A DNA stretch of 59,912 bases from Prevotella sp. GTDB lineage: Bacteria > Bacteroidota > Bacteroidia > Bacteroidales > Bacteroidaceae. The stretch lies in NCBI GenBank assembly GCA_017475265.1, contig JAFVFY010000081.1, forward strand, positions 1 through 59,912. The letters are read 5' to 3'. This document shows positions 628 through 59,815 of this stretch, in pieces. The first letter of the stretch is position 1. Each line of letters opens with the position of its first letter. Position numbers and translations under genes: made by a program. The notes beneath the pieces are model-generated. The model was not told the origin of the DNA. It did not search any database and saw nothing but the letters and a program-made list of their open reading frames with translations.

Positions 628-3600
628 ATGCTACTACAGAGGAATATCGTCAAGAAGTATCTGAACTTGCTCGGTGAGGAGCAGACAGCGAAGCCCTGGG
701 AGCAATACCAGCGGTTCTTCCTGAACGAGGACATACAGGCCAACATCCATAAAATCAAGGAGGAGCAGTTTCAGGAGGGCTTTCTTCGTGAACTGTTTGT
801 CAAGGTGCTGGGCTACACCATCAACCCCTCGCCCAACTACAACCTGACGACGGAACAGAAGAACGAGGTGGGGGCGAAGAAGGCCGACGGAGCCATCCTA
901 ATAGACGGCAAGGTGATAGGCGTGATAGAGCTGAAAGACCACAAGACGCCCGACCTTGCCAGCATCGAGCTTCAGGCTTTTGGCTATAAGAGCAAGCAGC
1001 GGGACACGCGCCTGGTCATCATCTCCAACTTCGAGAAGCTGCGCCTGTATATCGACAATGCCGTGGAGTTCCGCGAGTGGGACATCTTCCATATCACTGC
1101 CGAGGAGTTCCGCGAGCTATACCTTTGTCTGGCATGGGAACAAGTGAAGCACGGCGTGGCCTTGCAGATGAAGCAGGAGTCGGTGTCGAGCGAAGACCAG
1201 ATAACCAAAGCCCTCTACCGCGACTACTCGCACTTCAAGCGCGTGCTCTTTGCCGACATCCTGAAGAACAACCCGTTACCCTTATCTCTCACAGAAAGCA
1301 CGGAAAGCACAGAAAACTGCGAGAAGACTGACGAGAAGGAATGGCAGTTGCTGCTGTTCAAGAAGACGCAGAAGCTGCTTGACCGTCTGCTCTTCATCTT
1401 CTTTGCCGAGGACTGCGGACTGCTGCCACCCAACTCGATGGTGCAGATTATCGAACAGTGGGAGAAACTGAAGGAGCTGGATGCCTACGTGCCCTTCTAC
1501 GAGCGCCTGAAGAAATACTTCGGCTACATGAACACCGGCTTTCAGGGAAAGAAGTACGAGATATTCGCCTACAACGGAGGTCTGTTCAAACCCGACGAGG
1601 TGCTCGACAGCATCAGGATCAGCGACGAGCTGCTGGTGGAGCATACCCGTCGGCTCGCTGCCTACGACTTTGAGAGCGATGTTGACGTGAATATCCTTGG
1701 CCACATCTTCGAGAACTCCCTGTCGGAGATTGAGGAGGTGACGCAGCAGATTCAGGCATCAGGTGCTCCCCTTCCTATCGGGGAGGTGTCGGGGGAGAGG
1801 CTTTCAAAACGCAAGCAGGACGGCGTGTTCTATACCCCGCAGTATATCACGAAGTACATCGTGGAAAACACCGTGGGGCGTCTCTGCGCAGAGAAGAAAC
1901 AGCAGCTCGGCATTGTGGAAGATGAGTACCTTTCCGACCAGCGCCGACAGCTACAGACCAGGAAGCGACTGCTCGACCAGTTGAAGCAGTATCGTGAGTG
2001 GTTGCTACAGATTACCATCCTCGACCCCGCCTGTGGCAGTGGAGCGTTCCTGAATGCCGCCCTACAATTCCTGATGAAGGAGCATAAGCTGATAGACGAG
2101 ATGGAGGCAAAAGTCACAGGTTCTGCCATCGTCTTTCAGGACGTGGAGAACAGCATCCTGGAGCATAACCTCTATGGTGTGGACATCAACGAGGAAAGTG
2201 TCGAGATAGCCCAGCTGGCCCTCTGGCTCCGCACCGCCAAGCCCCACCGCAAACTCAACTCGCTGAACAAAAACATCAAGTGTGGCAACTCGCTTATCAG
2301 CGACCCTGCCATAGCAGGTGACAAAGCCTTCGACTGGCAGAAGGAATTCCCACAGGTCTTTGAGAAGGGAGGATTCGATGTGGTGATAGGGAATCCACCG
2401 TATATACCAACAGAGCGGATATCTTCTGTTTACAAATCTTTTTATGAACAAGTATATCAATCTGCCTACGGAAGGATAAATGTTTATCCCCTCTTTTATG
2501 AAAGAGGACTGTCATTATTGAAAAACAACGGATTGTTGGGCTATATTACTCCGTATACAATAATGAAAAATCAATATTATGTGGAAGCCAGGCGATACAT
2601 CTTGGACAACTGTAATATATTGTGTCTTGTTGATTTTTCAGGTTATCCTGTATTTGAAGATGCTACGGTAGATAGTATCATATTGATTCTACATAAGCAT
2701 CAACCAAAACTATCTAATCAATATCTTTTTGTAAACAATATTAAGGACTTTACAAATGGCTTCTACTCAACGTTGGAAGCTAAACAATCGGACATATTTC
2801 AACATGCTGATTTGTCATTTTGTAATATTGGAAGTACGCTTGACTTCAATAGAATAGTAGTTGATTGTGTAAAGTTAGGTGAAATAGTAAACTTTAAACA
2901 GGGCATTATAACAGGTAACAACAAGAAGTTCTTAACAAAGCAAGAAGGTAACAATACCAAAAAGGTCATAACAGGCTCTGATTTTAACCGATATTCGTTG
3001 AGGTGGCATAAAGATTATGTCATATATGATATAAACGAATTGCATAGACCTCGTGTACCTGAAATTTTTGAGGTTGCAGAAAAACTTCTATTGCGTCAGA
3101 CCGGATCATATCCTATATGTATGATAGATACAGATTCATATTATACGCTTGATACTGTTCATAACGGCATAATTAAAGATAAGAGATTTAATTTAAAATA
3201 CGTAATGTGTTTAGTGAACAGTAAATTACTTCGTTATTTATATGAGAGTTCTGTAAATGAATCAGGAAAAGTGTTTGCTCAGGTCAAAATCATATATATA
3301 GATCCTCTCCCTGTCAAAGTTGTTTCAGAAGCTTCCCAGCAACCCTTCATAGCTCTTGCTGACACAATGCTCTCTCTGAACACCCAGCTTCAGGATAAGC
3401 GTACCCGTTTCCTTCGTCGTCTGAGCGATAATCTGGAGGGTGTGAAGATTACTACTGCCCTGCAAGCTTTCGACCAGCTGGATTTCAAGGGTCTGATGGC
3501 AGAGCTGAAGAAACAGAAGATACACATACCCGTGAAGGAACAGGACGAGTGGGAAGACTTCTTCAAGGAACGCGTAGCAGACTGCCAGGCACTCTCGGCA

Positions 3601-3693: not shown

Positions 3694-3705
3694 TACAAAT
3701 CAGTT

Positions 3706-4875: not shown

Positions 4876-4913
4876 CTATTGCTCTGTAGCAAGAATTGAA
4901 TGTCATCTTCTTT

Positions 4914-4948
4914 GACCTACCCTATGGTTCTGGAGGGCTAGGTCTTTT
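4914..4948 (+). terminator. Intrinsic terminator after the RM/RAYT pair
   Basis: A stem GACCTA-CCC pairs with GGG-(C)-TAGGTC around a 12-nt loop and is followed by TTTT. It lies 38 bp past the RAYT-like stop codon, consistent with the end of a two-gene transcript. Confidence 0.75.
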
Positions 4949-5690: not shown

Positions 5691-5728
5691 CACTTATAAG
5701 GCAAACAAAAGTAACAAAAGTTATGGAA

Positions 5729-7617: not shown

Positions 7618-9526
7618 GACGACTATGAACGAAGAAATCATTCGCACAGACTATGATCTGGCTTACGGCGACCGCTACCGCCAGACACCGAAGGGCGACT
7701 CATCGCCCCTGATGCCGAAGTGGCAGGAGTTTGAGAAACAACGCAGGGCAGAACGCAGGAAGAAGGGGAAGCCGCAAAGCTTGGAAGCTTCGCCTACTAA
7801 GCAAAGCTTGGAAGCTTCACCTACTACACTGGAGGAAGAGGTGTTTGTACGTGCCGTGAACGATTACTATGCTAACGGTGTGGAGGAGGGTCACCGGCAC
7901 GAGACGTTCATCAGCGAGCTGGCTCCGTGGCTCTTGCTTCACACGGACAACAACCCGGCTAAAGCCCTTGCCCTAGCCCATCAAGTGGAGTGGGTGAAGA
8001 AATGGACTGACCGCACAGCGGGCGAGCTGGAAAACGTGCTTCAGACCGTCAGCGAGCGTCCGCTGCTGCGCAAGCTGCCCAAGCGTCTGACCGACCTGAT
8101 GGCGAAGGCCAATGCCGACGTGGCGTTGCAGATGGCGACAGCGCAGGACATCGACCCCTTGGCAGACCTGCCCTTCGAGAAATGGTGCAACGAGATAGAG
8201 AGGTTCTTCGACGTGTTCCCCTGTCTGCGCGAGGTGTGCGAACCCCATCCGCGCCGTCTGTGGCCCTTCCTGCTCTTTGCATCTGCTGCCATGATGGGCA
8301 CGTGTATGACGCTCTGCTACTACAGGTTCTACGTCGACAATACCATCCGCTGCCGACTGAACTACATCATCCTGGGCATAGGCGACCCCACCAGCGGCAA
8401 GGGCACGCTGAGCCGTCTGCAAGAGCTGCTGCTGGCACCCATCATCGATGCCGACGTGTTGGCAGACGAAGCCACTAACGCCTGGAAGGAGATGAAGGGC
8501 AACGCCGCCACCAACCATGACACGAAGGCCCGCGACAAGATCTACAACCGCATGTTTGGCCCGAGAGCCTCGAACACGGAGTTCATCCGCTCGATGATAA
8601 ACTGCAAGACAGTGGTGGACGGCATGGAGATGAATAATCACCTCATCACGGTGGACTCGGAGAAGGACAACAGCATCAACATGTCGAGGTCTGGAGGTTG
8701 GCAGAACCGCGACATCATGGCGCTGAAGGCGTTCCATAATGAGTTCGACGCACAGCACTACTCCAACAACCAGTCGGTGAGCGGACGCTTCCGCATATAC
8801 TGGAACCAGATAGAGACTTGCACGCCGCCCACGCTGAAAAGACTGGTCAACGAAAGGAACTTCAACTCTGGTCTTGACACCCGTATGGGGGCTATTCCCA
8901 TGGGGCAGGACGACTTTGTCATGATGCCCCTGATGAACGAGCACGACACGACTCTGGAGAAGGCAAACGAAACACTCAAGGAGTGGGCGTATAAGCTGGA
9001 CCAGCGTAGCGGTGAACTGCCGCTGTGGCCTCTGGTGGTGCATGTGCATAAGTGGTGTGACGAGCATTGTGCCATTGCCAAGTTCAACAACAAGGACAAG
9101 GCCGACTGGGTGCTCACCAAGCGTGTGCCGTACTATGGCATCAACGTGAGCGCACCCTACATCGACATGCGTCATTGGGAGGAGCGCGAAAAGACGGGCA
9201 CGTACCAGATAGACGACACGGACATCGCCCTGTGTGACCTGGTAGTCGATATTCAGTATCGCACGCAGCATTATTGGTTTTATGAACTACATCGTCTTTA
9301 CTACGACAACCAGCTGCGCGAGGCAGCACAGCAACGCCGACGTACCAACAAGTTCATGGAGTGCTTCAGACAGCTGCCAGAGGAGTTCACGACCGAAATA
9401 TTTGCCAAGACATTCGGCTATGCCAATAACCGCGCAGGACAGAAAACACTGGAACGTCTGCTTGACGACAAAGCCATTGAACGTACCAAGCGCGGCAACT
9501 ACAAAAAACTCGTTTCCGAACTGTAG
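7610..9526 (+). CDS. DUF3987 helicase-like protein
   Basis: This 638-residue protein has a P-loop-like motif, GIGDPTSGKGTL (about residues 256-267), downstream of a hydrophobic helix, the known DUF3987 pattern. Later motifs include ITVDSEKD and KAFHNEFDA. DUF3987 proteins are regularly encoded after BT4734-like primase domains and are thought to be replicative ATPases. The N-terminal linker contains two tandem copies of a nine-residue repeat (QSLEASPT core, 7772-7825). It overlaps the preceding gene by 8 nt. The stop codon ends at 9526, where the 39-bp island repeat begins. Confidence 0.85.
   Translation: MNKTTMNEEIIRTDYDLAYGDRYRQTPKGDSSPLMPKWQEFEKQRRAERRKKGKPQSLEASPTKQSLEASPTTLEEEVFVRAVNDYYANGVEEGHRHETFISELAPWLLLHTDNNPAKALALAHQVEWVKKWTDRTAGELENVLQTVSERPLLRKLPKRLTDLMAKANADVALQMATAQDIDPLADLPFEKWCNEIERFFDVFPCLREVCEPHPRRLWPFLLFASAAMMGTCMTLCYYRFYVDNTIRCRLNYIILGIGDPTSGKGTLSRLQELLLAPIIDADVLADEATNAWKEMKGNAATNHDTKARDKIYNRMFGPRASNTEFIRSMINCKTVVDGMEMNNHLITVDSEKDNSINMSRSGGWQNRDIMALKAFHNEFDAQHYSNNQSVSGRFRIYWNQIETCTPPTLKRLVNERNFNSGLDTRMGAIPMGQDDFVMMPLMNEHDTTLEKANETLKEWAYKLDQRSGELPLWPLVVHVHKWCDEHCAIAKFNNKDKADWVLTKRVPYYGINVSAPYIDMRHWEEREKTGTYQIDDTDIALCDLVVDIQYRTQHYWFYELHRLYYDNQLREAAQQRRRTNKFMECFRQLPEEFTTEIFAKTFGYANNRAGQKTLERLLDDKAIERTKRGNYKKLVSEL
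7772..7825 (+). repeat. 27-bp tandem duplication inside the DUF3987 gene
   Basis: Two 27-bp units (7772-7798 and 7799-7825) differ at only a few positions. Each contains the palindromic AAGCTTGGAAGCTT core and encodes nine residues ending SLEASPT. The frame is preserved. Confidence 0.9.
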
Positions 9527-9564
9527 AAAGTAGGAAAGTAGGAAAGCCGACATTAAGGTGTTTT
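9526..9564. repeat. 39-bp direct copy of the left-end repeat
   Basis: The 39 bases are identical to 269-307 (two GAAAGTAG units, then GAAAGCCGACATTAAGGTGTTTT type). The copy begins on the last base of the DUF3987 stop codon. Together with the inverted pair at 262-502 it brackets the island. Confidence 0.9.
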
Positions 9565-9786: not shown

Positions 9787-10179
9787 ATGAAAAGATTTTT
9801 TGTGTTTTTTGCGGCTTCTGTGATGCTTCTCTCTTGTCAGGAGAGTTTGGAGGAGCGTGCCGCCCGTGAAGCCCGTGAGGTAACGGAGACCAAGTGTCCC
9901 ATGCCAGTTGCCGACAATGTGATTCTGGATAGTGTTGTGTTTGATATTCCAACGCTGACTCAGTCACAGTATTTTCGCGTTAAGGGAGAGCTGGACAATG
10001 ACTCCCTGTTTGAGTCTGTGGATTCCCGTAGCCTTCTGCTTCAGGAATTGAAGAACGCACCTACCTATCGTGCTTTGAGGGAGCGTGGCGTGCTCTTCCA
10101 CTATGTCTACTATTCAACAAAAGAGCCCAGCAAGGTGATGCTGGAGCTTACGCTTACCCCGGAAGACTATAAACAATAA
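9787..10179 (+). CDS. Small lipoprotein of unknown function
   Basis: This 130-residue protein starts MKRFFVFFAASVMLLSC, a lipoprotein signal with the acylated Cys at position 17. The mature part is charged and soluble, with no domain I recognise. A GTG nine bases upstream is less likely than ATG 9787, because the signal sequence begins here. A consensus promoter lies 28 bp upstream. It is followed by a repeat-filled gap. Confidence 0.75.
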   Translation: MKRFFVFFAASVMLLSCQESLEERAAREAREVTETKCPMPVADNVILDSVVFDIPTLTQSQYFRVKGELDNDSLFESVDSRSLLLQELKNAPTYRALRERGVLFHYVYYSTKEPSKVMLELTLTPEDYKQ

Positions 10180-10345
10180 ACAATAACCAATAACCAATAA
10201 ACGTTAGACAATAACCAATAAACGTTAGACAATAACCAATAAACGTTAAACAATAAACGATAGACGAGGGGCAATAAACAATAAACGTTGATTCGCATTT
10301 GATAGCGCACCAACGTTTATTGTTTGTCGTTTAATGTTTATTGCT
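10176..10345. repeat. CAATAAACGTTAGA repeat array with inverted end
   Basis: The gap is built from near-identical 20-21 bp units of CAATAACCAATAAACGTTAGA type. After a short non-repeated stretch the motif returns in inverse orientation (CAACGTTTATTG from about 10310), so the array can fold into a hairpin. The right end overlaps the last codons of the DUF1573 gene. The same unit recurs at 27482-27575. Confidence 0.85.
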
Positions 10346-35392: not shown

Positions 35393-37009
35393 TTTACTGT
35401 TTTCTACGATGTTAAGCATTTTTATGGTAGCCTTGATGGCTGCTTCTGTCTGGTCGGCGTCCAGGCCTCGGGTGCGCAGCAGCCTTCCGCTGTCCATCTG
35501 CCAGGTGATGACCGTCTGCACCAAGGCGTCGGTGCGGCCGCCGGGCGGGATAGTCACGGCGTAGTTCTCCAGCAGGGGGAACGTCCGGTCGAGGTTCTCC
35601 TTGTAAATCATGCGCAGCGCCTTCACGAAGGCGTCATACTGACCGTCACCAGAGGAGTGCCCCTCGTACTGCTGACCGTTAATCTCTACTTTTACGTTTG
35701 CAAGAGGCTTCAGACCGTAAGCCAATGACACTTGGTAACTTACCAGCTTTACCTTGTCCTCTGTTACATCATGTTTCAGCACGTCGCTAACGATAAACGG
35801 CAGGTCCTCCTGTGTGACCACCTCCTTGCGGTCGCCCAGCTCGGTGACACGACGTGTGACGCGCTGCATCTGCTCCGGCGTGAGGTCGAGTCCCAGCTCC
35901 TGCAGGTTGCGCATGATGTTGGCTCGCCCGCTGGTCTTGCCCATAGCGTAGGCCCGACGACGGCCGAATCGCTCGGGCATCAGGGCGTTATGATAGAGAT
36001 TGCCCTTCTGGTCGCCGTCAGCATGAACACCGGCCACCTGCGTGAAGACGTTGTCGCCGATGATAGGCTGGTTGGGGGCGATGGCAATACCGCTATAGCT
36101 CTCCACCATGCGGCTGATGTCGTTCAGCTTCTCTTCGTTGATGCTCGTCAGAGCGTTGAAATGGTCTTTGAGTATCACCTGGACGCTCGACAGCGGGGCA
36201 TTGCCGCAGCGCTCGCCAAGACCGTTCACCGTGACGTGCAGTCCTCGGGCACCGCTCAGGGCTGCCGCTAAAGAGTTGCTCACGGCCAGGTCGTAGTCGT
36301 TGTGGGCATGGAAGTCGAAATGTGTGTTGGGGTAGCGCTTCACCATCTTACGGAAATACTCCACCACCTGCAAGGGGTTCATAATGCCCAGCGTGTCAGG
36401 GAGCATGAAACGCTTAATGCATTGACCATTGACCATTGACCGTTGAACATTGTTGGACTCCGCGTTCTCTTGCGCAGCTGAATGGTCAATAGTCAATGGT
36501 GAATGGTCAATGGTCAATGCGTCCATCAGCTGATAGACATACTCCGGCGAGTCCTTCATGCCGCCAGACCAGTCCTCGAGGTAGATGTTCACGCCGATGC
36601 CCTTCTCAGCCGCATAGCTGACCACGGCCTTAATGTCGGCGATGTGCTCTTCGGGTGTCTTGTGCAGCTGCTGGGTACAGTGGCGCAGCGATCCTTTGGC
36701 AAGTAGGTTCAGCGTCTTGGCACCACATTCGTCGAGCCAGTCCACGGACGTATGGCCGTCGACGAAGCCCAACACCTCGACGCTCTCCAGGCGGTTTATC
36801 TGCTGGGCATAACGGCAAATCATCTTCACCGCCTCCTTCTCGCCGTCGCTCACACGGGCAGAGGCCACTTCAATGCGGTCTACGTTGAGGTCGCGCAGCA
36901 GCGTGCGAGCTATCATCAATTTCTCATGGGGAAGGAAACTCACGCCGCTGGTCTGTTCGCCGTCGCGTAGCGTGGAGTCCATAATCTCAATGAATCTCTG
37001 GTCTGACAT
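35384..37009 (-). CDS. Isopropylmalate/citramalate synthase family protein
   Basis: This 541-residue protein is a DRE-TIM acyltransferase: MDSTLRDGEQTSGVSF, HAHNDYDLAVSN (metal His pair), GLGERCGNAPL, and a C-terminal allosteric LeuA_dimer domain (VKVEINGQQYEGHSSGDGQYDA). It condenses acetyl-CoA with a 2-oxo acid. The sequence alone does not separate 2-isopropylmalate synthase from (R)-citramalate synthase. A 34-residue insert (36419-36520) encodes a repeat element. A promoter is at 37037-37068. Confidence 0.88.
   Translation of the reverse strand: MSDQRFIEIMDSTLRDGEQTSGVSFLPHEKLMIARTLLRDLNVDRIEVASARVSDGEKEAVKMICRYAQQINRLESVEVLGFVDGHTSVDWLDECGAKTLNLLAKGSLRHCTQQLHKTPEEHIADIKAVVSYAAEKGIGVNIYLEDWSGGMKDSPEYVYQLMDALTIDHSPLTIDHSAAQENAESNNVQRSMVNGQCIKRFMLPDTLGIMNPLQVVEYFRKMVKRYPNTHFDFHAHNDYDLAVSNSLAAALSGARGLHVTVNGLGERCGNAPLSSVQVILKDHFNALTSINEEKLNDISRMVESYSGIAIAPNQPIIGDNVFTQVAGVHADGDQKGNLYHNALMPERFGRRRAYAMGKTSGRANIMRNLQELGLDLTPEQMQRVTRRVTELGDRKEVVTQEDLPFIVSDVLKHDVTEDKVKLVSYQVSLAYGLKPLANVKVEINGQQYEGHSSGDGQYDAFVKALRMIYKENLDRTFPLLENYAVTIPPGGRTDALVQTVITWQMDSGRLLRTRGLDADQTEAAIKATIKMLNIVENSKKS
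36419..36520. repeat. 102-bp inverted-repeat element inside the synthase gene
   Basis: GCATTGACCATTGACCATT (36419-36437) and its exact reverse complement (36502-36520) bound a 102-bp segment, which is 34 codons exactly. Further GACCATTGAC units lie inside each arm around a core of about 28 bp. The same unit is found in trpF (38617-38650) and ftcD (48046-48076). Confidence 0.9.
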
Positions 37010-38044: not shown

Positions 38045-38135
38045 GATTCTTTTGGGTTTAATGGGTTTAATGGGCTCTATGGGTTTAATGGGTTTTATGG
38101 GGCTAATGGGTTTAATGGGCTCTGTGGGGTTAGTG
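38045..38135. repeat. GGGTTTAATGGG repeat between trpF and trpA
   Basis: About seven imperfect TTTAATGGGCTCTATGGG-type units form the whole trpF-trpA gap and overlap the last codons of trpF. The same unit separates trpD and trpC (39572-39660). Confidence 0.85.
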
Positions 38136-38810
38136 GGATAGTTGGGAGAGGAAACGGCGAAGGGCATCAACGTCTTTGATTCCAGGTTCGGTCTCGAAGC
38201 GGGAGTTAAGGTCGATGCCGATGCACTTGGGGTGATGGAAAGCGCGGACACGCTCGGCGTCATCAGGGCCGATGCCGCCACTGAGCAGGAAGGGCAGCTC
38301 GCCGTCGTAGGCGTCAAGAATACTCCAGTCGAACTGCTCACCGCTACCGCCCACCGTTTTACACTTGGTGTCGAAGAGGAAGTAATCCACACAGTCGGAG
38401 TAGTCCTTGTATGTTGCAATATCATCGATAGTCTCCACGCTGATGGCCTTGATAATCTTGATGCCGGGACGGATGTCAGGGTCGAGGGTAAGGCGGAGGT
38501 TGCGGATAAGGGTGGGGGACTCGTGACCATGGAGTTGGATGATGTCGAGTTTGTAATTGAATACACGGGTGACGATGTTCTGAGCCATCTCGTCGACGAA
38601 GACGCCGACGCGCTTACATTGACCATTGACCTTTGACCATTGACCATTGGCGCGGTCGGGGATGATACCGGCGTTAGTGGGAATCATCGTGACGTTGCGG
38701 GGTGACTTGTCCCAGAAAATCATGCCAATCCAGTCGACACCTAACTCTACGACTTGGCGGATGTTCTCGCCGTCGCGCATACCACAAACTTTTACTATCA
38801 GGTTGTTCAT
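38130..38810 (-). CDS. trpF: Phosphoribosylanthranilate isomerase
   Basis: This 226-residue TIM-barrel isomerase starts IVKVCGMRDGENIRQV (catalytic Cys in KVCGM). It contains IIQLHGHE, FDTKCKTVGGSGEQFDW (catalytic Asp) and LSGGIGPDD. A repeat of GACCATTGAC units (38617-38650) inserts about 11 residues after PDRA, in frame, in a surface position of the early barrel. It sits between trpC and trpA. Confidence 0.96.
   Translation of the reverse strand: MNNLIVKVCGMRDGENIRQVVELGVDWIGMIFWDKSPRNVTMIPTNAGIIPDRANGQWSKVNGQCKRVGVFVDEMAQNIVTRVFNYKLDIIQLHGHESPTLIRNLRLTLDPDIRPGIKIIKAISVETIDDIATYKDYSDCVDYFLFDTKCKTVGGSGEQFDWSILDAYDGELPFLLSGGIGPDDAERVRAFHHPKCIGIDLNSRFETEPGIKDVDALRRFLSQLSH
38617..38650. repeat. 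GACCATTGAC repeat inside trpF
   Basis: Three to four GACCATTGAC units lie in the trpF coding sequence and encode a NGQWSKVNGQ-like stretch. The same family is found in the LeuA-like gene and ftcD. Confidence 0.8.
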
Positions 38811-38827: not shown

Positions 38828-39571
38828 TTATTTCGATAACTCGATGATAAACTCCCGCAGGGTGGCGCCAGGGTTGGCGGTCTTCATAAAGGTCTCGCCG
38901 ATGAGGAAGCCTCGGAAACCTGCTTGGCGCAGCGCCTTAATGGTCTCTGGGTTACTGATACCGCTCTCGCTGACCTTTACGGCATCCTTCGGCAGGAGCT
39001 CGGCCAGACGGAACGAGTTCTCGACATCGGTGACGAAGGAACCAAGGTTGCGGTTGTTGATGCCGCAGAGGTCGGGGCCGAGGTCGGCATACTCCAGTTC
39101 CTCTTCAGCGTGCATCTCCAAGAGCACCTCCAAGCCGAGGCTGTGGGCTTTCTCCATGAGATACTTGCACTCCTGCTTCGTGAGGCAGGCGGCGATGAGG
39201 AGCACAGCCGACGCGCCACAAAGGGCTGCCTCGTAGAGCTGCATCTCGTCGATGACGAAGTTCTTGTAGAGGATGGGAATGGTCACACCGCTCTGCCGGG
39301 CTTCTGTTATAAAACGGTCGTGGCCACCGAAATATTGTTTATCGGTGAGGATGCTCAGGGCGGCGGCACCATTCTGCTGATAGCACAGCGGAATGATGTC
39401 TGCCCGGCCTTCTTCCTTAATCCAGCCCTTAGAGGGAGAGCGGCGCTTGAACTCGGCGATGATGCCAGAGTCACTCTGAAGCAAGGCGTCTCTTAGTGAG
39501 GGCTTCTTTGCCCGCATACGCTCCAGCTCTTTGCGCTTGTGGGAGATGATTTCTTGGAGGATATCTTTCAT
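38828..39571 (-). CDS. trpC: Indole-3-glycerol phosphate synthase
   Basis: This 247-residue protein closes the indole ring. Motifs: IIAEFKRRSPSKGWI (catalytic Lys), LSILTDKQYFGG, ILYKNFVIDEMQ, LLEMHAEEEL, GINNRNL and VSESGI. It is a stand-alone enzyme, not fused to TrpF. It sits 17 bp before trpF in the operon and is separated from trpD by a repeat spacer. Confidence 0.97.
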   Translation of the reverse strand: MKDILQEIISHKRKELERMRAKKPSLRDALLQSDSGIIAEFKRRSPSKGWIKEEGRADIIPLCYQQNGAAALSILTDKQYFGGHDRFITEARQSGVTIPILYKNFVIDEMQLYEAALCGASAVLLIAACLTKQECKYLMEKAHSLGLEVLLEMHAEEELEYADLGPDLCGINNRNLGSFVTDVENSFRLAELLPKDAVKVSESGISNPETIKALRQAGFRGFLIGETFMKTANPGATLREFIIELSK

Positions 39572-39660
39572 GGGGGTGATGGGTTTAATGGGGCTAATGG
39601 GTTTAATGGGGCTAATGGGTTTAATGGGGGGATGGGTTTAGTGGGTTTAATGGGTTTTAT
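39572..39660. repeat. GGGTTTAATGGG repeat between trpD and trpC
   Basis: Seven or so units of GGGGCTAATGGGTTTAAT type fill the gap; same family as 38045-38135. Confidence 0.85.
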
Positions 39661-40667
39661 GAGTTGAGCTCGACGAATTTCTTGAACGTGCGGAGGGCGG
39701 TGCCTGAGTCGATGCTCTCGCGGGCGATGTCGATGCACTCCTCAATGCTCTTCTGGCCCTTTTCGAGCACCTGGATGCCGAAGGCGGCGTTGGCCAGCAC
39801 GATGTTCTTCTGGGCGGGCAGGGCGCGGTTCTCCAGCACGGAGTCGAAAATCTGTGCTGCCTCCTCCTCTGTGGCACCGCCTACCAATTCCTCTGGCTTG
39901 GCGATGTCGAAGCCCAGGTCGCGGGGCGAGAAGATGCGCTCGTAGTCCTTTGTGGTAACCTTGAAGTCGCCCGTCAGGGAAATCTCGTCGTAGCCGTCGA
40001 TGCTGTTCACGATGCCGTAGTCAATTCCCAACTTCTGGTACACCTGATGGTAGAGGCGCATCTGGTCGAGGTTAGCCACGCCGAGCAGCTGACACTTAGG
40101 CTGAGAGGGATTGACGATTGGGCCTAACAGATTGAAGATGGTGGGGAACTGCAGCGCCTTGCGGATGGGGCCTACGAATTTCATGGCGCGGGCAAAGAGC
40201 TGGGCATGCAGGTAGACGATGCCGGCCTCGTTGAGCGAGCGGTTCAGCTTGTCGATGTCATCCGTGAACTTAATGCCGTGATGGGCGATGACGTTCGAAG
40301 CGCCCGAGACCGACGTGGCTGCATAGTTGCCGTGCTTTGCCACCTTGTAGCCCGCGCCGGCGATGACGAAGCAGGCCGTGGTCGAGATGTTGAACGTGTT
40401 CTTGCGGTCGCCGCCCGTGCCGACGACATCGATGTAGCGGTCGGCCTCCAGGATAGCAGGTACGCCGGTCTCCAGGATGCCGTCGCGGAAGCCGAGCAGC
40501 TCGTCGACGGTGACGCCGCGCATCTGCAGGCAGGTCAGCAGGGCCGTGATTTGCTCGTTGGGGTACTCTGAATGGGTGATGCCAATCAAGATTGTTTTCA
40601 TCTCCTCGCGGGAGAGCTCTTCGTGGTTCAGGAGGCGGAAGAGGTAGCCTTTCATTGTCTGTTCCAT
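39657..40667 (-). CDS. trpD: Anthranilate phosphoribosyltransferase
   Basis: This 336-residue protein transfers the phosphoribosyl group of PRPP to anthranilate. Motifs: DVVGTGGDRKNTFNIST (PRPP loop), KHGNYAATS, RKALQFPTIFNLLGPIVNP and GYDEISL. A second ATG 12 bp downstream (MKGYLFRLL) may be the true start. It stands between trpG and trpC. Confidence 0.97.
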   Translation of the reverse strand: MEQTMKGYLFRLLNHEELSREEMKTILIGITHSEYPNEQITALLTCLQMRGVTVDELLGFRDGILETGVPAILEADRYIDVVGTGGDRKNTFNISTTACFVIAGAGYKVAKHGNYAATSVSGASNVIAHHGIKFTDDIDKLNRSLNEAGIVYLHAQLFARAMKFVGPIRKALQFPTIFNLLGPIVNPSQPKCQLLGVANLDQMRLYHQVYQKLGIDYGIVNSIDGYDEISLTGDFKVTTKDYERIFSPRDLGFDIAKPEELVGGATEEEAAQIFDSVLENRALPAQKNIVLANAAFGIQVLEKGQKSIEECIDIARESIDSGTALRTFKKFVELNS

Positions 40668-41614: not shown

Positions 41615-43102
41615 TTAAATCCTTTCCGCTGTCTCGATGGCCTTGCGCAGGGCGCCGAGCTTATTGTTCACTTCCTGCAATTCATATTCCACATCGCTCT
41701 TCGCCACGATGCCGCCGCCAGCTTGGAACCATAGTTCGCCGTTGCGAGCAACGAAGGTACGGATGGTGATAGCCTGGTTGAGCGAACCGTCAAGGCCGAT
41801 GATGCCGATGCAACCACCGTATGCTCCGCGGTTGTGCGGCTCGTACTCAGAGATAAGCTGCATGGCGCGAACCTTCGGCGCACCGCTCAGGGTACCTGCC
41901 GGGAAGGTGTCGATGAAAGCCTTGATGGGGTCTTTATCGTCATCAAGCTCACCGCTGACACGAGAGACAAGGTGAATGACGTGTGAGTAGTACTGCAGGT
42001 CTTTATAGAAGTCCACCTTCACCCCGTGACAGTTCCTCGACAGGTCGTTGCGGGCAAGGTCTACGAGCATCACGTGCTCAGCGTTCTCCTTGGGGTCGTT
42101 GCGCAGGTATTCTGCTCCCTTTCGGTCGGCCTCGGCATCGCCCGTGCGCTTCGTTGTCCCCGCAATGGGGTCGATGTACGCCCGGAATTTATTATTTGGG
42201 GCGTCAGTTCGCTCGATGCGGCAGTGTGTCTCAGGACTTGAGCCGAAGATGCGGAAGCCGCCGAAGTCAAAATAGAACAAGTATGGCGAGGGGTTGATGC
42301 TCCGCAGGGCGCGATAGAGCTTGAAGTCGTCGCCCTCGTACTTCTGGATGAAGCGGCGGCTGAGCACAATCTGGAACACATCGCCACGAAGACAATGACG
42401 GATGCCACGACGGATGTTCTCCCTGTGCTCGTCATCGGTCAGCGTGCTCTTCACATCGCCGATGGGGTGGAAGCCGTAGGCCTGGACATTCGACTTGTTC
42501 ATGGCTTTGAGGATGTCGGGGATTACTGACCCCACCCTCAACCCCTCCCCTTGAGGGGCGGGGAGTTGCTGCACGCAGCCATTCCCTTCCCTTGTAGTGA
42601 CGGGGTCAGTAATCTCCACCACTTTCAGCATGTTATTATGATGGTCGAACACAATCACCACCTTATATAATATATAGAGCACGTCGGGGGCATCGTTCTT
42701 CTCCTGAGTCTCGTCCTTCACGTCGATGTTCTCGAAGTAGCGCACGGCGTTGAAGCTGGTATAGCCAAAGAGCCCGCAGACGTCCTTGTCATCGCCCTCG
42801 ACTTGGATACGGTCGATGAGGGCGTGGATGGCCTCGGCAGAACCGAAGCCCGCGCCCAGGGGCTGGCGGAGCGTTGTTCCGTCGGGAAAACCGACGGAGG
42901 CGATGCCGTGACCGATGGCCACGCTGGCGATGGGGTTGATGCCGATGAACGAACGGGAGTTGTTCGCGTCGTGATAGTCCGAGCTCTCCATCAGCGCACT
43001 CTGGGGGTAGAGGTCGCGAAGTCGCATATACACGCCGACGGGAGTATAAAGGTCGGCAAGAATCGTCTTGCTGCTTGTTGTATATTTAAAAGTCTTCTCC
43101 AT
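41615..43102 (-). CDS. trpE: Anthranilate synthase component I
   Basis: This 495-residue chorismate-using enzyme has the C-terminal chorismate-binding motifs RRFIQKYEGD, SSPETHCRI, IAGTTKRTGD, LVDLARND, SGELDDDKDP and GAPKVRAM. The N-terminal feedback region has YPQSALMESSDYHDANNSRS, which fits a Trp-binding ESS motif. A 94-bp element (42521-42614) adds about 31 residues between the two parts without a frameshift. It is the second gene of the operon. Confidence 0.96.
   Translation of the reverse strand: MEKTFKYTTSSKTILADLYTPVGVYMRLRDLYPQSALMESSDYHDANNSRSFIGINPIASVAIGHGIASVGFPDGTTLRQPLGAGFGSAEAIHALIDRIQVEGDDKDVCGLFGYTSFNAVRYFENIDVKDETQEKNDAPDVLYILYKVVIVFDHHNNMLKVVEITDPVTTREGNGCVQQLPAPQGEGLRVGSVIPDILKAMNKSNVQAYGFHPIGDVKSTLTDDEHRENIRRGIRHCLRGDVFQIVLSRRFIQKYEGDDFKLYRALRSINPSPYLFYFDFGGFRIFGSSPETHCRIERTDAPNNKFRAYIDPIAGTTKRTGDAEADRKGAEYLRNDPKENAEHVMLVDLARNDLSRNCHGVKVDFYKDLQYYSHVIHLVSRVSGELDDDKDPIKAFIDTFPAGTLSGAPKVRAMQLISEYEPHNRGAYGGCIGIIGLDGSLNQAITIRTFVARNGELWFQAGGGIVAKSDVEYELQEVNNKLGALRKAIETAERI
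42521..42614. repeat. 94-bp element with 13-bp perfect terminal inverted repeats inside trpE
   Basis: GATTACTGACCCC (42521-42533) and its exact reverse complement (42602-42614) bound the segment. Inside, CCCCTCCCC-TTGA-GGGGCGGGG forms a further hairpin. The frame stays open throughout. Confidence 0.9.
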
Positions 43103-44675: not shown

Positions 44676-44797
44676 TATTCTGCCAAATATTTTACGATTT
44701 TTAGCAATTTTATCAATTCTCCGCTCGGCCGAAGGACGCTTGCTCAGCAAGACCCCTCAACTCTTAATTATCAATTGTCAATTGTAAATTCTCAATT

Positions 44798-45343
44798 CTA
44801 GAAGCTTGGCTCGGCATAGCCGCGCTGATACTCGGAGTTCTGGATGCCGTTAATGCGGAGCGTGTCCCCGCCGTCATAGTCGAAGAGCATGTTGTGGCTG
44901 TAGGCCATCCAACCATTCCCCTGCTCGTCGGGCTCGTCGAAACTGGCATAGAGAATGAGGCGGTTCTCGCCTACGCCGTTTTCGTTCCTCTGCCATTCCA
45001 GCTTCCACGTGCCGCTGAAGCTACCGACGAGCGATTCCATATCCTCCCAGTCGGTGTATTGCTGTTCGCCATTGATGGTGACCAACGAGCGTTTCTGCCA
45101 TTTTCGGTTGCCAGTCAGCGTGCCGTCCTCCCAGAACGTAAGCCGCTCGTAAAACCGTTGTTTGTCGTTAGTGTACTCGCAATACCACGTGCCTTCCAGC
45201 TGCCACCCGTACTGCTTTTGCAGCTGTTCCGTCTTCTCGTGTGCCTCAGGGTCAGCCCATTCAGGGTCGTTGCTACAGGAGGCGAGGACGAACAGGGCAA
45301 GCATCGTCACAAAGAGTCTGCAAATCTTCTTTGCTTTCATCAT
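44798..45343 (-). CDS. Lipoprotein of unknown function, lipocalin-like
   Basis: This 181-residue protein has a lipoprotein signal (FVTMLALFVLASC, Cys23). The mature part is rich in Trp and Tyr with alternating strands (GTWYCEYTND, LTFWEDGTLTGN, GSFSGTWKLEW, ENRLILYASF), like lipocalin-type or META-like small beta-barrels. The start MMKAKKICRLF is preferred over upstream codons because it opens the signal peptide. It lies upstream of the trp operon on the same strand, but the operon has its own promoter. Confidence 0.75.
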   Translation of the reverse strand: MMKAKKICRLFVTMLALFVLASCSNDPEWADPEAHEKTEQLQKQYGWQLEGTWYCEYTNDKQRFYERLTFWEDGTLTGNRKWQKRSLVTINGEQQYTDWEDMESLVGSFSGTWKLEWQRNENGVGENRLILYASFDEPDEQGNGWMAYSHNMLFDYDGGDTLRINGIQNSEYQRGYAEPSF

Positions 45344-54617: not shown

Positions 54618-57347
54618 ATGAACCAATTCCTTCTTTCCGCCATGATGATGGCGATGGTACTACCGGCTATAAGCCAGGAACGCTCCTCTTCGAGCATGTA
54701 CATACAGCCGCAGCCTAAGTCTGACGTGACTCTTTACTATAGTGTCGATGGCGAGGGTACTCGTTTCCAGCCTATCTGGGGACTCGACCTTGCATGGATT
54801 AACGAACAGAACCTACGCAAGGGTGTGCGCCACATGGGAAAAGAGAATGTGGGCATAGGCCGTTCTGCCTTTCGCTTCACGGATGCGTTGGTCAACGATG
54901 TGAGCCTGACCAATAGCCAGATAAATAATCTTCGTCGGCGCAGCAATCTCTTCACCTCTATCTGCGGAGCAGAGCTACCGCTAGTGCTTACTGCCGACCA
55001 GGAGGCTGGGACAAACAGCTACTACGTGACGAACAAAAGCTGCAACACCAGTCACTGGGCAGCGATGATTAACGCCCATGTGGAGTGGATGCAGCAGAAC
55101 ACTAGCCACCCCATCGTCGGTGTCTCGCCCTATAACGAGCCTGACTACTGGACCGAGGAGGAGGGCGCTACCGTGGCCAAGCAGGTGGAGGTGGCCAAGA
55201 AACTGCGTGAGGAGTATCCGAGCATGGAGGACGTGGCCATCGTTGGCGGCAACACCCTGAACAACGATAAGGCTATGGACTGGTATAAGACGGGTAAAGA
55301 CTATTACGACTGGGGGAACACCCACCAGCTGGCTGGTGACTTCAACACCTTCGCCGCTTTCTACAGTCAGCTGAAGGCTGACGGTAAGACGGGCTATGCT
55401 GATGAGATGCACAACGTGGGTGAGGCTATGATTGGTCTGGAGTACGGTATGACGGTAGGCATCTGGTGGGGCTTCGACAGCCGTGCCCGTGGTGAGTTCT
55501 GCGACATCTCGCGCAACGGCGAGCGTTTGGCCTACGGTGAGCACCGTAACAACTGGACGGCGGCATCGGTCTATCGTCATGACGACGGACGGGTGAAAGC
55601 TTTCATAGGCAGTAGCGAGCGTCAGGCAAAGACAACAACATACCAGTTCGTCAGTACCGACCGCGACATGTACTATGATACGCAGGGCCCAATGCGTTCT
55701 TTCCGAATGGAGATTCCAGGCGGCACAGGCTACCAGAATGGTCAAACCAACGCAGAACGTGTGATAGACATTACTTGGGGTGAGAACGTGCCCTACGTGG
55801 CTGTTACCGATGGTACATATCGCATTGTGAACAAGGCCACTGGAACATACATTAATGCTTCATCGAACATTATTCTACAGAATAGCTTCCCTAAGTCAAA
55901 GACTCAACAATGGACGATTAAGTGGAGTGACCCGAAGCGCACAAGCGGAGACTACAGCTTCCTCGACATCGAGTCGGTCAGTAATAGCAAGCTACGCATG
56001 AACGTAGAGAATTTCTCCACCTCTGACGGAGCCAACGTCATTGGCTATTCGCAGAACGAAACACCATCGACCAACGAGCAATGGTACCTGCAATATGCCG
56101 GCGATGGGTTCTTTTACATTCGTAACCGTGAGACCTCGCTCTATCTCACCTCTGCCTCATCGTCAACCAGCAATGGTGTGCGTGTGCGCACTAACGAGCT
56201 GCAGGCTGACAGTACCGAGCGCGCCCGCCAGATGTGGCGACTGCTCCCAGTTGGCATTGACTACGACAGGGAAGCTCCTGCAAAGCCTCAGGGATTCACG
56301 GCTAAGGTACAGTCTGCATCGGTACGCCTGACATGGCAGGCAAATAATGACGAGGACTTGCGGGGATATAACATCTTCAGAAAAGATGCTGAAGGCTGGA
56401 GCGTCATAGCACGTGATATCAAATCTACGTCGTTTGTAGATAACAACTGCCGTCCCGGGCACACCTATTCATATATTGTCAGGGCTTTGGATAACGCCCT
56501 TAATCTCTCCGAAACCAGCGAGACCGTAGAGGCTACTCTAACGGATGCTCCGGCACTCATAGCCCGATGGACAATGAACAACACACTCAACGACACCACC
56601 GAGAACGTCATGGATGCTGCCGTCTATGAAACCGAAAGCTACTTAGCAGGAAACCCGGCCCTTGATACAGAAGAAGTCACCTATAAAGGACTGAGCCTTA
56701 AAGAGAAATGCTATGCACAACTGCCCTACGAGGTGGCCAGCCACGACGAGCTGACTTTCTGCGCATGGGTTAAAGTGCTCAGCTCAAAGCAGTGGCAGCG
56801 AATCTTTGACTTCGGCAACGGTACTTCGCACTACATGTTCCTCACACCAAATGCGGGCAGTACCATGCGCTTCGCCATCAAAAACGGAGGCGAGGAGCAG
56901 ACACTTGACTGCGCAAAACTGCCAGTAGTGCAATGGAAACACGTGGCCGTGACGATAGGGCAGGGGAGAACTGCTATTTACATCGACGGCGAGGAAGCAG
57001 CATCAACTACCGACATCACTATCAAGCCTAGCGACATACGTCCCGCGATGAATTTCTTGGGACGCAGCCAGTTCGATTCCGACCCTGCCCTCACGGGTAC
57101 TATTCAGGATGTGCGCATTTATAACTACGCCCTCACGGCTGAAGAGGTGAAGCAAGCAATGAAACTGGAAGTCGAATCGCCCGTGAAAGGCGATGTCAAT
57201 GGCGACGGTACGGTGGACGTAGCTGACATTTCCAGTATCATCAGCGTCATGGCTGGTGATGGTGAATATGCCAATGCTGATGTCAACGGCGACGGTACGG
57301 TAGACGTAGCCGACATTTCGACGGTAATATCGATTATGGCTGAATAA
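54618..57347 (+). CDS. Modular clan-A-type glycosidase with lectin, FN3, LamG and dockerin
   Basis: This 909-residue secreted protein has a catalytic (beta/alpha)8-like part (about 20-400) with acid/base Glu in GVSPYNEPDYW and a candidate nucleophile Glu in YADEMHNVGEA; the family is probably GH30-like but not assigned. A ricin-type trefoil (about 410-545; TYRIVNKATGTYINAS), an FN3 domain (about 555-640) and a LamG/concanavalin domain (about 650-850) follow. Residues 857-909 form a type I dockerin with two DVNGDGTVDVADIS calcium loops. The start ATG 54618 opens the signal peptide. No cohesin is visible in the window. Confidence 0.88.
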   Translation: MNQFLLSAMMMAMVLPAISQERSSSSMYIQPQPKSDVTLYYSVDGEGTRFQPIWGLDLAWINEQNLRKGVRHMGKENVGIGRSAFRFTDALVNDVSLTNSQINNLRRRSNLFTSICGAELPLVLTADQEAGTNSYYVTNKSCNTSHWAAMINAHVEWMQQNTSHPIVGVSPYNEPDYWTEEEGATVAKQVEVAKKLREEYPSMEDVAIVGGNTLNNDKAMDWYKTGKDYYDWGNTHQLAGDFNTFAAFYSQLKADGKTGYADEMHNVGEAMIGLEYGMTVGIWWGFDSRARGEFCDISRNGERLAYGEHRNNWTAASVYRHDDGRVKAFIGSSERQAKTTTYQFVSTDRDMYYDTQGPMRSFRMEIPGGTGYQNGQTNAERVIDITWGENVPYVAVTDGTYRIVNKATGTYINASSNIILQNSFPKSKTQQWTIKWSDPKRTSGDYSFLDIESVSNSKLRMNVENFSTSDGANVIGYSQNETPSTNEQWYLQYAGDGFFYIRNRETSLYLTSASSSTSNGVRVRTNELQADSTERARQMWRLLPVGIDYDREAPAKPQGFTAKVQSASVRLTWQANNDEDLRGYNIFRKDAEGWSVIARDIKSTSFVDNNCRPGHTYSYIVRALDNALNLSETSETVEATLTDAPALIARWTMNNTLNDTTENVMDAAVYETESYLAGNPALDTEEVTYKGLSLKEKCYAQLPYEVASHDELTFCAWVKVLSSKQWQRIFDFGNGTSHYMFLTPNAGSTMRFAIKNGGEEQTLDCAKLPVVQWKHVAVTIGQGRTAIYIDGEEAASTTDITIKPSDIRPAMNFLGRSQFDSDPALTGTIQDVRIYNYALTAEEVKQAMKLEVESPVKGDVNGDGTVDVADISSIISVMAGDGEYANADVNGDGTVDVADISTVISIMAE

Positions 57348-57370
57348 GTCCTATTAATGTTAGAAGTCAC

Positions 57371-59815
57371 ATGAACTCCACATCCCCCTCACTACTGTCA
57401 GAACTTAACCCCAGCCAGCGGGAAGCCGTGGAGTATTGCGACGGTGCCTCGCTTGTCATCGCGGGTGCCGGTTCGGGCAAGACTCGTGTGTTGACCTACA
57501 AGATTGCCTACCTGCTACAGGAGAAAGACCTGAAGCCATGGAACATCCTGGCCCTGACCTTCACCAACAAGGCGGCAAAAGAAATGAAGGAGCGCATAGC
57601 ACGACTGGTAGGCGCAGACCGGGCCCGCTACTTGCAGATGGGAACCTTCCACTCTGTCTTTTCCCATATACTTCGTGTGGAGGCAGAGCATATCGGCTAT
57701 AACCCCAGCTTCACTATCTACGACCAGGCTGATGCCCGCTCGCTGACGAAGAGCATCATCAAGGAGATGGGACTCGATGACAAGGTCTACAAGCCCAATA
57801 CCGTCAGCGACCAGATTTCGATGGCGAAGAACCACCTCATCCTGCCCGGACAGTTCCCGCAATGTTCGCTCTACGACTCCAAGCGTCCCAAGGTGCACGA
57901 TGTCTACCAACGTTACGTCGCCCGTTGCCGTCAGGCCAACGCCATGGACTTCGACGACCTGCTCGTGCAGACCTTCCTGCTCTTTGAGCGCAACGAGGAT
58001 ATACGCCGAAAGTATGTAGAGAAATTCCTCTACGTGCTCGTCGATGAGTATCAGGACACCAACTTCGCCCAGCAGAAGATTGTCTATCAGCTCACTCGTG
58101 AGCGGCAGCGTGTCTGTGTCGTGGGCGACGATGCCCAGAGTATCTACAGCTTCCGTGGCGCTAACATCGACAACATCCTGAACTTCCAGCAGATGTATGC
58201 CGACGCCCGTCTCTTCAAGCTGGAGCAGAACTACCGCTCTACGCAGCTCATCGTGAAAGCCGCCAACAGCCTCATACGCAAGAACGAACGACAGATTCCC
58301 AAGGACGTTTTCAGTAAGAATGACGAGGGTGAACGTGTCACCCTGAAGCCCGCCTACAGCGACAAGGAGGAGGCGATGATAGTCTGTGGCGACATCAAGC
58401 ACATCATGAAGAAGGAAGGTGGACAGTACAGCGACTTTGCCATCCTCTACCGCACCAATGCCCAAAGCCGCTCCTTCGAGGAGCAGATGCGGAAGGACAA
58501 CATTCCCTATCGCATCTACGGCGGTCTGAGCTTCTATCAGCGTAAGGAAATAAAAGATGTCATCGCCTACTTCCGTCTCGTGACCAATCCCGACGACGAG
58601 GAGGCCTTGAAGCGCATCATCAACTACCCAACCCGTGGCATCGGCGATACCACGCTCAACAAGATTGTCGCTGCCGCTAACGAAAGTGGCCTCTCCCTTT
58701 GGACGGTCATCACTAGTATCACTACTGATGGTAACGCCCCTCTCACTCCCCCCTCACTCCCCCTTCACTCCACTTTCACTCCCCCTTCTATCTCCCCCGC
58801 CACCGTCAGCAAGCTGAAGGCATTCCGCCAGCTAGTCGCCGACTGGACAGCACGTGCCGCCACCCAAGACGCCTACGAGATAGGCCATGCCATCGTGCAG
58901 GAGAGTGGTGTGTCCAAAGACCTCTACAGCGGTCATAACCCCGAGGATGTATCCCGGCAGGAGAACCTTCAGGAGTTCCTCGGCGGTGTCCACGACTTCG
59001 TGGAAGGCCGTCGCGAAGAAGGACTTGGTGACCAGGTGGCGCTCTCCGACTTCCTGCAGGAGGTGGCTCTGCTCACCGACCTTGATAGCGATGGCGACGC
59101 CGACCAGCCCAAGGTTTCGCTGATGACTATCCATTCTGCCAAGGGACTTGAGTTCCCCACCGTCTTCGTCGTTGGCCTGGAGGAGAATATCTTCCCCTCG
59201 CCCTTGAGTATGGGTTCTTTGCGTGAGCTTGAGGAGGAGCGGCGCCTGTTCTATGTGGCCATCACCCGTGCTGAGCGTCATTGCATCCTCACCTGTGCCG
59301 AGAGTCGCTTCCGCTATGGTCGCATGGAGTATGACACGCCGTCGCGCTTCATCCGTGACATCGACCCTTCGTTCATCCGTGTAGAATCCTTAGGGGCAGA
59401 CCCCGTGTCAGCCCGCAACGATGATTTCGGTTCTTCCAACCTCCCGTGGAAGAAGAATAATTGGATGCAGAACTCGCATCCTGTGGCTACCCAGTTCCGT
59501 GCCGACCCGAAGCCTCGCGCTGTACCCCCTCATCGTGAGGCTCCACCCGTAGACCCCTTCTCCGACAGTTTCAAGCGTCAGTTGCAGCAGGCCTCAGGCA
59601 ACAGGCTGAAGCCCGTCACTAGTGCTGTTCCTTCAAATCCCAGCAGCTTCTCTCCTCTTCGCGAGGGCTCCGTCATAGAGCACCTGCGCTTCGGCATCGG
59701 CACAGTTCTCCGTGTGGAGGGCGAAGGTGAAAACACCAAGGCCACCGTGCAATTCCGAAACGCCGGCACCAAACAGCTGTTGCTGAAATTCGCCAAGTAC
59801 AACATTGTCAAATGA
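57371..59815 (+). CDS. UvrD/PcrA-type DNA helicase
   Basis: This 814-residue superfamily 1A helicase has motif I AGAGSGKT (31-38), motif II VDEYQDTN, GDDAQSIYSFRGA (III), TIHSAKGLEF (V) and YVAITRAERHCIL (VI). The C-terminal Tudor-like PcrA tail (GSVIEHLRFGIGTVL) is present. It acts in repair and displaces proteins from DNA. A proline-rich insertion (58736-58800, TPPSLPLHSTFTPPS) between motifs IV and V is an in-frame genomic repeat. Confidence 0.95.
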   Translation: MNSTSPSLLSELNPSQREAVEYCDGASLVIAGAGSGKTRVLTYKIAYLLQEKDLKPWNILALTFTNKAAKEMKERIARLVGADRARYLQMGTFHSVFSHILRVEAEHIGYNPSFTIYDQADARSLTKSIIKEMGLDDKVYKPNTVSDQISMAKNHLILPGQFPQCSLYDSKRPKVHDVYQRYVARCRQANAMDFDDLLVQTFLLFERNEDIRRKYVEKFLYVLVDEYQDTNFAQQKIVYQLTRERQRVCVVGDDAQSIYSFRGANIDNILNFQQMYADARLFKLEQNYRSTQLIVKAANSLIRKNERQIPKDVFSKNDEGERVTLKPAYSDKEEAMIVCGDIKHIMKKEGGQYSDFAILYRTNAQSRSFEEQMRKDNIPYRIYGGLSFYQRKEIKDVIAYFRLVTNPDDEEALKRIINYPTRGIGDTTLNKIVAAANESGLSLWTVITSITTDGNAPLTPPSLPLHSTFTPPSISPATVSKLKAFRQLVADWTARAATQDAYEIGHAIVQESGVSKDLYSGHNPEDVSRQENLQEFLGGVHDFVEGRREEGLGDQVALSDFLQEVALLTDLDSDGDADQPKVSLMTIHSAKGLEFPTVFVVGLEENIFPSPLSMGSLRELEEERRLFYVAITRAERHCILTCAESRFRYGRMEYDTPSRFIRDIDPSFIRVESLGADPVSARNDDFGSSNLPWKKNNWMQNSHPVATQFRADPKPRAVPPHREAPPVDPFSDSFKRQLQQASGNRLKPVTSAVPSNPSSFSPLREGSVIEHLRFGIGTVLRVEGEGENTKATVQFRNAGTKQLLLKFAKYNIVK
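58736..58800. repeat. CTCACTCCCCC repeat inside the helicase gene
   Basis: Four to five CCCCTCACTCCCCCTTCACT-type units are carried in frame and encode about 22 Pro/Ser/Thr-rich residues. Confidence 0.8.

Follow-up and report, generated by a model that had tools for sequence, protein, structure and literature searches.

Short repeats lie in frame in conserved genes of a Prevotella genome, both within the window and beyond it, and those composed of 7-nt or 11-nt tandem units are probably (we would put the chance near 60%) gene-less relatives of the hairpin elements that surround S23/IVP genes, themselves kin to 23S rRNA intervening sequences. The window, by which we mean the whole stretch of DNA analysed (59,912 nucleotides), is contig C117 of a 4.75 Mb genome assembled in 135 contigs. 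This reading would join three loose ends, namely the unexplained heptamer repeats, the orphan genes of the S23/IVP type and the translated palindromic inserts, and it offers a concrete test case of how a repeat enters conserved genes without killing them.

Repeat inserts in the window and in orthologous genes

An earlier note on this DNA had described repeats inserted in frame in many genes. All of the coordinates that it named were read, and in pheT, cimA, trpF, trpE, ftcD, uvrD and GH127 the repeats were found in place with the frames open; the RM gene segment at 1766-1800 stays outside this confirmed set. Three inserts claimed in GH115, which came without coordinates, were not confirmed: the gene has just a few extra residues there relative to BtGH115A and no exact inverted arms of at least 10 nt, a search that also overlooks the imperfect palindrome of GH127. 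Nor do the inserts form the one family proposed, since at least two unrelated repeat classes had been pooled. Tandem arrays occupy pheT, cimA, trpF and ftcD (7-nt units) and uvrD (11-nt units), and GC-rich palindromes, unrelated to these arrays, occupy trpE and GH127. The arrays and palindromes of the window are as follows.

10155..10294, no strand assigned: intergenic heptad array (AATAAAC); matches the arms of an S23/IVP hairpin on contig C102 of this genome
12367..12406, minus strand: heptad array (CTCAAAT family) in pheT; 12369-12401 matches S23/IVP hairpin arms on contig C74 of this genome
14026..14099, no strand assigned: array (TTTACGATTT) between genes; 14065-14097 matches S23/IVP hairpin arms of this genome, C85
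27478..27577, no strand assigned: heptad array (AACGTTTATTG) between genes or at their edge; matches S23/IVP hairpin arms of this genome, C102
34795..34887, minus strand: GC-rich palindrome in GH127; about 14 net residues relative to PDB 5mqo; no IVP-arm match
36419..36520, minus strand: tandem-heptad hairpin in a LeuA-like/citramalate synthase-like gene (cimA); ATTGACC arm, loop, GGTCAAT arm
38617..38650, minus strand: heptad array (CAATGGT) in trpF; the loop that holds it varies among relatives
42521..42614, minus strand: GC-rich palindrome in trpE; 13-bp perfect terminal inverted repeats; no IVP-arm match
44756..44799, no strand assigned: intergenic heptad array (CTCAATT/AATTGTC); 44765-44797 matches S23/IVP hairpin arms of this genome, C111
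48046..48076, plus strand: heptad array (CAATGGT/CAATGTT) in ftcD; eight additional residues
58736..58800, plus strand: 11-mer array (CCCCTTCACTC) in uvrD; 17 additional residues; 58737-58788 matches S23/IVP hairpin arms on contig C20 of this genome

The cimA hairpin reads in translation as ...ALTIDHSPLTIDHSAAQENAESNNVQRSMVNGQC..., has a predicted RNA fold of -48.7 kcal/mol and carries TCA at the positions of in-frame TGA. Several further repeats were observed in the window. An identical 39-nt stretch, beginning with GAAAGTAG 8-mers, occurs at 261-307 and 9526-9564, and with an inverted 8-mer run at 475-502 the segment 261-502 may be a further hairpin. Arrays of 9-mers (ATGGGTTTA) lie at the trpF-trpA and trpD-trpC junctions (38053-38137 and 39566-39661). 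This genome contains some two dozen partial matches to the GC-rich trpE palindrome; among 19 loci inspected (L252-L270), some copies of this type lie within called coding sequence.

Comparison with orthologues, which the earlier note had named as one of two tests that could refute it, did not do so and showed that most orthologues examined lack repeats at these places. The 17 residues of uvrD face a 19-residue gap in PcrA, and an insert of at least 8 residues was present there in none of 29 other sequences. The cimA insert adds 28 residues; one of 29 others has an insert of at least 8 residues at the site, with a different sequence, and a second relative has a shorter array. In ftcD the gain is 8 residues, with a different 27-residue insert close by in one relative, and in trpE it is 21 residues, with inserts of at least 6 residues at the same place in 8 of 80 relatives, all of them differing. 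The description of the repeats as inserts needs qualification at pheT and trpF, where the arrays sit in loops of variable length anyway: the pheT loop of the window is the longest among the 12 sequences shown, and the net gain in trpF is not clear. Solved structures of PcrA and RsmH are without the inserts of uvrD and of RsmH (a host outside the window), and the repeat region of QueA, another such host, has only about 11 extra residues, in pieces, relative to the solved protein. In an alignment of 33 TrpE sequences the insert is flanked by invariant columns to either side, and the trpE gene therefore looks intact.

The relatives of the window's trpE, mostly records of rumen Prevotellaceae and of Bacteroidales, have inserts of their own. 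When the 80 relatives and the window were taken together, 31 of 81 sequences had an insert of at least 6 residues that falls beyond the core columns; two places account for most of these inserts. By eye, some ten of the inserts in relatives are plainly tandem repeats, with units such as AGAGGTG, CTCACCA, CAGGAGT and CAATGTT that are their own. Inserts of at least 6 residues, some of them repeats, also occur in the trpA, trpF, trpC, trpD and trpG genes of relatives, and none of that length was found in their trpB. A metagenome assembly artefact was considered and is unlikely; the trpE of Prevotella aff. ruminicola Tc2-24 (L060), whose record is not marked as metagenome-assembled, contains a CAATGTT array. 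At one cimA site three species have three different repeats, these being the ATTGACC hairpin of the window, a CGGACT hairpin in G007 (by eye) and a CTCACCT array in G033, and the other 16 of the 18 relatives displayed have neither a hairpin nor an array there. The CAATGGT-type module occupies the same position of PurL in this genome and in L097, and the same place of wbqC in this genome and in G151; such sharing may come from a common ancestor or from a tolerant site having been used more than once.

A dispersed heptad family and its frame signature

Abundance was evaluated in a sample composed of the window plus twenty 20-kb stretches, taken at fixed offsets from 14 contigs of the same genome that had been met in earlier hits (459,912 nt in total). 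Genes were assigned with a home-made, hexamer-based caller that was trained on this sample and called 85% of it coding; the caller requires open frames, so that the absence of stops and the strand bias within called genes are partly built in. Among tandem arrays counted at periods 4-30, period 7 was the commonest, with 17 coding, 12 intergenic and 3 edge arrays, and a dinucleotide shuffle, run once per stretch, contained no period-7 array. The next commonest period was 22, with 1 coding and 9 intergenic arrays. Period 7 also came first in 80 loci of relatives (1.06 Mb; 18 coding, 24 intergenic and 4 edge arrays), followed there by period 8 (1, 13 and 2); the shuffles for both sets were single runs. 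Because seven is not a multiple of three, the coding period is unlike that of ordinary amino-acid repeats.

The whole-genome count, the other test that the earlier note had proposed, did not refute it either: when at most two mismatches were tolerated, the 19-mer CAATGGTCAATGGTCAATG matched 475 times and its reversed control not once. In the DNA of this genome that was examined, CAATGGT-type repeats occupy 68 distinct sites, of which 60 are called coding, 5 edge and 3 intergenic (stricter merging gives 62 sites: 55, 4 and 3). The coding sites consist of 37 single arrays on the open strand (sense), 6 single arrays on the closed strand (anti) and 17 hairpins, and along 51 uncut ORFs their positions are flat, except that none falls in the first tenth. 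Restriction to perfect matches leaves 34 sites, with 30 coding (29 sense), 2 edge and 2 intergenic, so gene-breaking copies are at most the 4 non-coding ones. The control family CTCAATT has 23 sites, 14 coding (all sense) and 9 intergenic, a distribution different from that of CAATGGT (Fisher p=0.005); of 35 perfect rows, 30 supplied the loci in which its sites were counted, and the pattern has 275 matches against 22 for its reverse. In other species the coding single arrays are sense in 17 of 17 cases.

The host proteins are recognizable ones. A scan of 20 of the 60 gave a Pfam match in all 20, and for 10 of them the best-matching stretch encloses the insert, for example in MraW/RsmH, QueA, methionyl-tRNA synthetase (MetRS), a pseudouridine synthase, an FGGY kinase and the HAD domain of an E1-E2 ATPase. 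Distribution across the genus is patchy: the family was found in 42 of 150 genomes, with 0 to 297 matches each when one mismatch was allowed. In the sister species G006 the CAATGGT heptads are mostly intergenic (13 of 16), and the coding bias therefore belongs to this genome and certain others and not to the heptad as such. Several times the G006 heptads form part of nested palindromes (L393-L401), with 12-mers of the GCTGCGTTACC type as outer arms and heptads as inner arms. The coding counts for G151 are too low, as the caller missed its wbqC gene.

An exact heptad array traverses all three frames every 21 nt, so each strand is open or closed regardless of frame. The open strand of a CAATGGT array encodes a single peptide, VNGQWSM, in any frame, and the ATTGACC strand is closed by TGA. 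The earlier note had asked whether coding copies avoid stops in the frame used, and they do, to an extent partly built into the caller. In coding copies of the closed strand the in-frame TxA triplets comprised 25 TCA, 1 TTA and no TGA, against TGA in 73 of 78 off-frame triplets. The arms of intergenic hairpins, taken from eight places in G006 and one in this genome, had TGA in 110 of 121 triplets and TCA in 1 of 121. The caller by itself would give a count of zero in-frame TGA; it does not explain the excess of C, a base nearly absent at this position from intergenic arms. A similar pattern was seen at the G151 wbqC locus, where two copies within the ORF are open in the frame of the gene and a copy just upstream of the start has only TGA-type units. 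That the in-frame base is nearly always C points to one frame-locked module copied between genes rather than to many independent changes.

Inverted tandem arms around S23/IVP genes

In G006 a pair of inverted arrays surrounds a small ORF that matches PF05635 (23S_rRNA_IVP). This family has 7 matches in the present genome, 2-11 in each of seven other genomes searched and at least one match in 157 of the 198 genomes taken from across the phylum; its likeness to Avd, which serves diversity-generating retroelements as an accessory protein, has been reported (PMC10053308), and one S23/IVP protein of this genome matches the solved structure 2rld. In a first set of loci from the genus, inverted arms lay beside the gene in 27 of 27 (scores 34-94), mostly of period 7 and also of periods 8, 10 and 11. 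Control genes reached an arm score of at least 30 in 2 of 112 cases, and in 5 of 208 in a second control. Seven further genus loci above the family cut-off gave six passes (C74 and C85 of this genome and four of G140) and one failure (L480 of G151, score 16), so that inverted arms, mostly tandem repeats, accompany 33 of the 34 S23/IVP loci scored. This set leaves unscored L434, L435 and L441, which are below the cut-off, other rows below it, and five partial or fragmentary rows above it. All six full-length copies of this genome pass; C127, whose match is below the cut-off, scores 20 and fails. At the scale of the phylum, represented by the best-scoring match from each of 30 genomes, 14 of 30 loci pass a score of 30 and 19 pass 24. 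Classical intervening sequences lie in 23S rRNA and are excised by RNase III; the flanks of the gene-bearing hairpins here read as protein genes as far as inspected.

The arms of these hairpins recur elsewhere in the genome that holds them. For the six full-length hairpins of this genome, the 460 kb sample contained 9, 8, 4, 0, 3 and 9 sites; the arm family of the C123 copy had no other site in it. The median for 23 arms from other genomes was 1 site (own versus foreign, p=0.014), and some foreign arms are frequent too, namely the GTTGAGAG type (TTGAG) with 10 sites and the ATTGACC type with 6-7. The arms were then compared with 16 inserts of our own choosing. All five tandem inserts of the window matched an S23/IVP arm, as did six of eight tandem inserts of relatives, against none of three GC-rich inserts and 10 of 320 letter-shuffled inserts. 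With idealised units, four of the five window inserts matched (mean 0.57, maximum 2, in 60 unit-shuffled sets), and 7 of all 13 tandem inserts did so (mean 1.68, maximum 4, again in 60 sets); the ideal ftcD unit array gave no arm match.

The commonest coding family does not fit the simplest form of this relationship. ATTGACC arms surround none of the six full-length S23/IVP genes of this genome and were seen around such genes only in sister species, which weakens the simplest source model. The loops of the coding hairpins show, by eye, no likeness to remnants of S23/IVP genes. A homology search of the window, L031-L110 and L291-L310 found no S23/IVP gene. As a separate observation, L420, L431 and L442 each have an S23/IVP hairpin with ATTGACC arms, apparently at the same gene junction in three species, which by eye we take to be serC-serA. 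Another small gene, at 8934-9365 of L307, has strong inverted arms in the same layout as S23/IVP genes and is presumably GxxExxY-like; of this possible second gene-bearing form there are two examples, with arms at one.

Origin of the inserts and comparison with known systems

The preferred reading envisages a dispersed family of hairpin elements in which short tandem repeats form the arms of the stem, with the heptad and 11-mer inserts as its gene-less members. Gene-carrying members hold one S23/IVP four-helix-bundle gene (PF05635) between two inverted arms, as in 23S rRNA intervening sequences. New copies would land widely and be lost from genes unless they fell in a tolerant loop and remained open. 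In one hairpin lineage the closed-strand arm is open as well, by TCA in place of TGA once per 21 nt, and the occurrence of this lineage in many genes in the same frame (LTIDHSP...NGQWSMVNGQ) suggests gene-to-gene copying. The arms could grow by template switching at the hairpin. The inserts are presumably translated, and S23/IVP proteins may have a role in copying. A bolder proposal holds that S23/IVP proteins maintain or spread common Bacteroidota hairpins with tandem arms, and that one lineage is a translated mobile element, with one arm encoding the same peptide in any frame, the other frame-locked by Ser for stop, and the module copying itself between enzyme genes; we regard this as possible and rather doubtful. 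As for the mobile class suggested by the earlier note, the dispersal and the patchy distribution are observed, and mobility itself is what these suggest. Inverted arms, a MITE-type feature, are present; no strain-level filled/empty pair or target-site duplication was found, the available pairs being too distant for a duplication to be recognized, and in relatives as much as 94% alike the arrays look as if they had grown locally.

That last behaviour would be expected if the arrays arose by slippage alone, each in place from a chance seed and with no dispersal, and if S23/IVP genes did no more than settle into hairpin loops, as is the case with those in 23S rRNA helices. The arrays of close relatives do extend short local seeds, and overrepresented heptamers are recorded in many bacteria (PMC4692102). 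Slippage does not readily account, however, for one unit at dozens of unrelated sites of a genome and its absence from many sister species, nor for 17 hairpins at unrelated genes that have both arms in common and, in several cases, loop features as well (SAAQ, NNGQ). The in-frame base would also be expected to be a mixture of sense codons under independent growth, but it is nearly always C, as for a single copied module, and we consider slippage alone unlikely. An account in which the peptides are retained because they help their hosts, as selected linkers or regulatory segments rather than tolerated passengers, would draw on the strongly coding distribution of CAATGGT in this genome (30 coding, 2 edge and 2 intergenic sites, versus 14 coding and 9 intergenic for CTCAATT) and on the presence of the module at the same place of PurL and WbqC in two species each. 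Yet the host functions are unrelated, the inserts vary in sequence and length, most orthologues examined manage without them and the family is mostly intergenic in G006, all of which makes such selection improbable.

Hairpins suit HUH enzymes, and the genome contains three Y1_Tnp matches, one of full length, so non-autonomous hairpins moved by a Y1 (HUH) tyrosine transposase, in the manner of REP/RAYT systems, were also weighed; REPs within genes are on record (PMC3733652). The full-length gene (L331) lies between GC-rich palindromes of other sequence, which are not tandem arms and are also unlike those of trpE and GH127, and by eye the partial matches L332 and L333 have no heptad arms. With other palindromes as the flanks of the full-length gene, the Y1 transposase was dropped as the mover of the heptad hairpins, and this mode of spread is very improbable. 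The L331 locus, on contig C37 of this genome, is an observation in its own right, with a Y1 (HUH) transposase gene amid palindromes of GCCCCGAAGGGGC and CCCCCG runs that resembles a RAYT unit.

The inserts offer a ready natural collection of linker peptides and of sites in enzymes that tolerate insertion. They also call for caution, as protein annotations of this group include repeat-born segments. Among titles and the beginnings of abstracts in the open-access literature, subscription papers being mostly uncovered, there was no account of the S23/IVP link or of heptad hairpins in Prevotella genes.

The palindromic elements of Rickettsia and Wolbachia (RPE/WPE) are palindromic repeats that lie in frame in protein genes and are probably translated. 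The earlier note had taken the Rickettsia elements as the nearest parallel, and in effect the likeness is real, as the present repeats are dispersed palindromes that sit in conserved genes without shifting the frame and that most orthologues lack; the nearest kin found, however, are the hairpins around S23/IVP genes. To our knowledge, RPE/WPE include no tandem heptad arms or S23/IVP-bearing members, the comparison being one of descriptions. Both are mentioned briefly in PMC3733652. PARCELs are likewise coding repeats with dyad symmetry that are thought to move between genes, but are described as domains of 25 residues, arranged in tandem, in variable proteins with no assigned function (PMC2996958), whereas the present elements are short hairpins in enzymes. 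In the 23S rRNA intervening sequence of Coxiella, termed a selfish element, two to three tandem heptamers are reported just upstream of the S23p ORF (PMC4990558). A hairpin stem around an S23/IVP ORF is common to that system and to the gene-bearing hairpins described here. The hairpins seen here differ in lying between and inside protein genes and in having tandem arrays of many unit families as arms, and the gene inserts differ further in having no S23/IVP gene, while they have arm sequence in common with the S23/IVP hairpins.

The STRR sequences of cyanobacteria are heptamer direct repeats. So are the GGGAATC repeats (PMC4692102) and the TAACTGA repeats (PMC4679880); for the latter MacGregor noted that stops close every frame of one strand while the opposite strand can be read through (LSVISYQ), and that ORFs contain some of the copies. 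All of these, as here, are tandem 7-mer arrays dispersed over the genome. As described, they are mostly intergenic, and their ORF copies are mainly at protein ends or in hypothetical proteins; in contrast, dozens of the present repeats lie mid-enzyme in conserved proteins, and many are hairpins with a frame-locked stop replacement.
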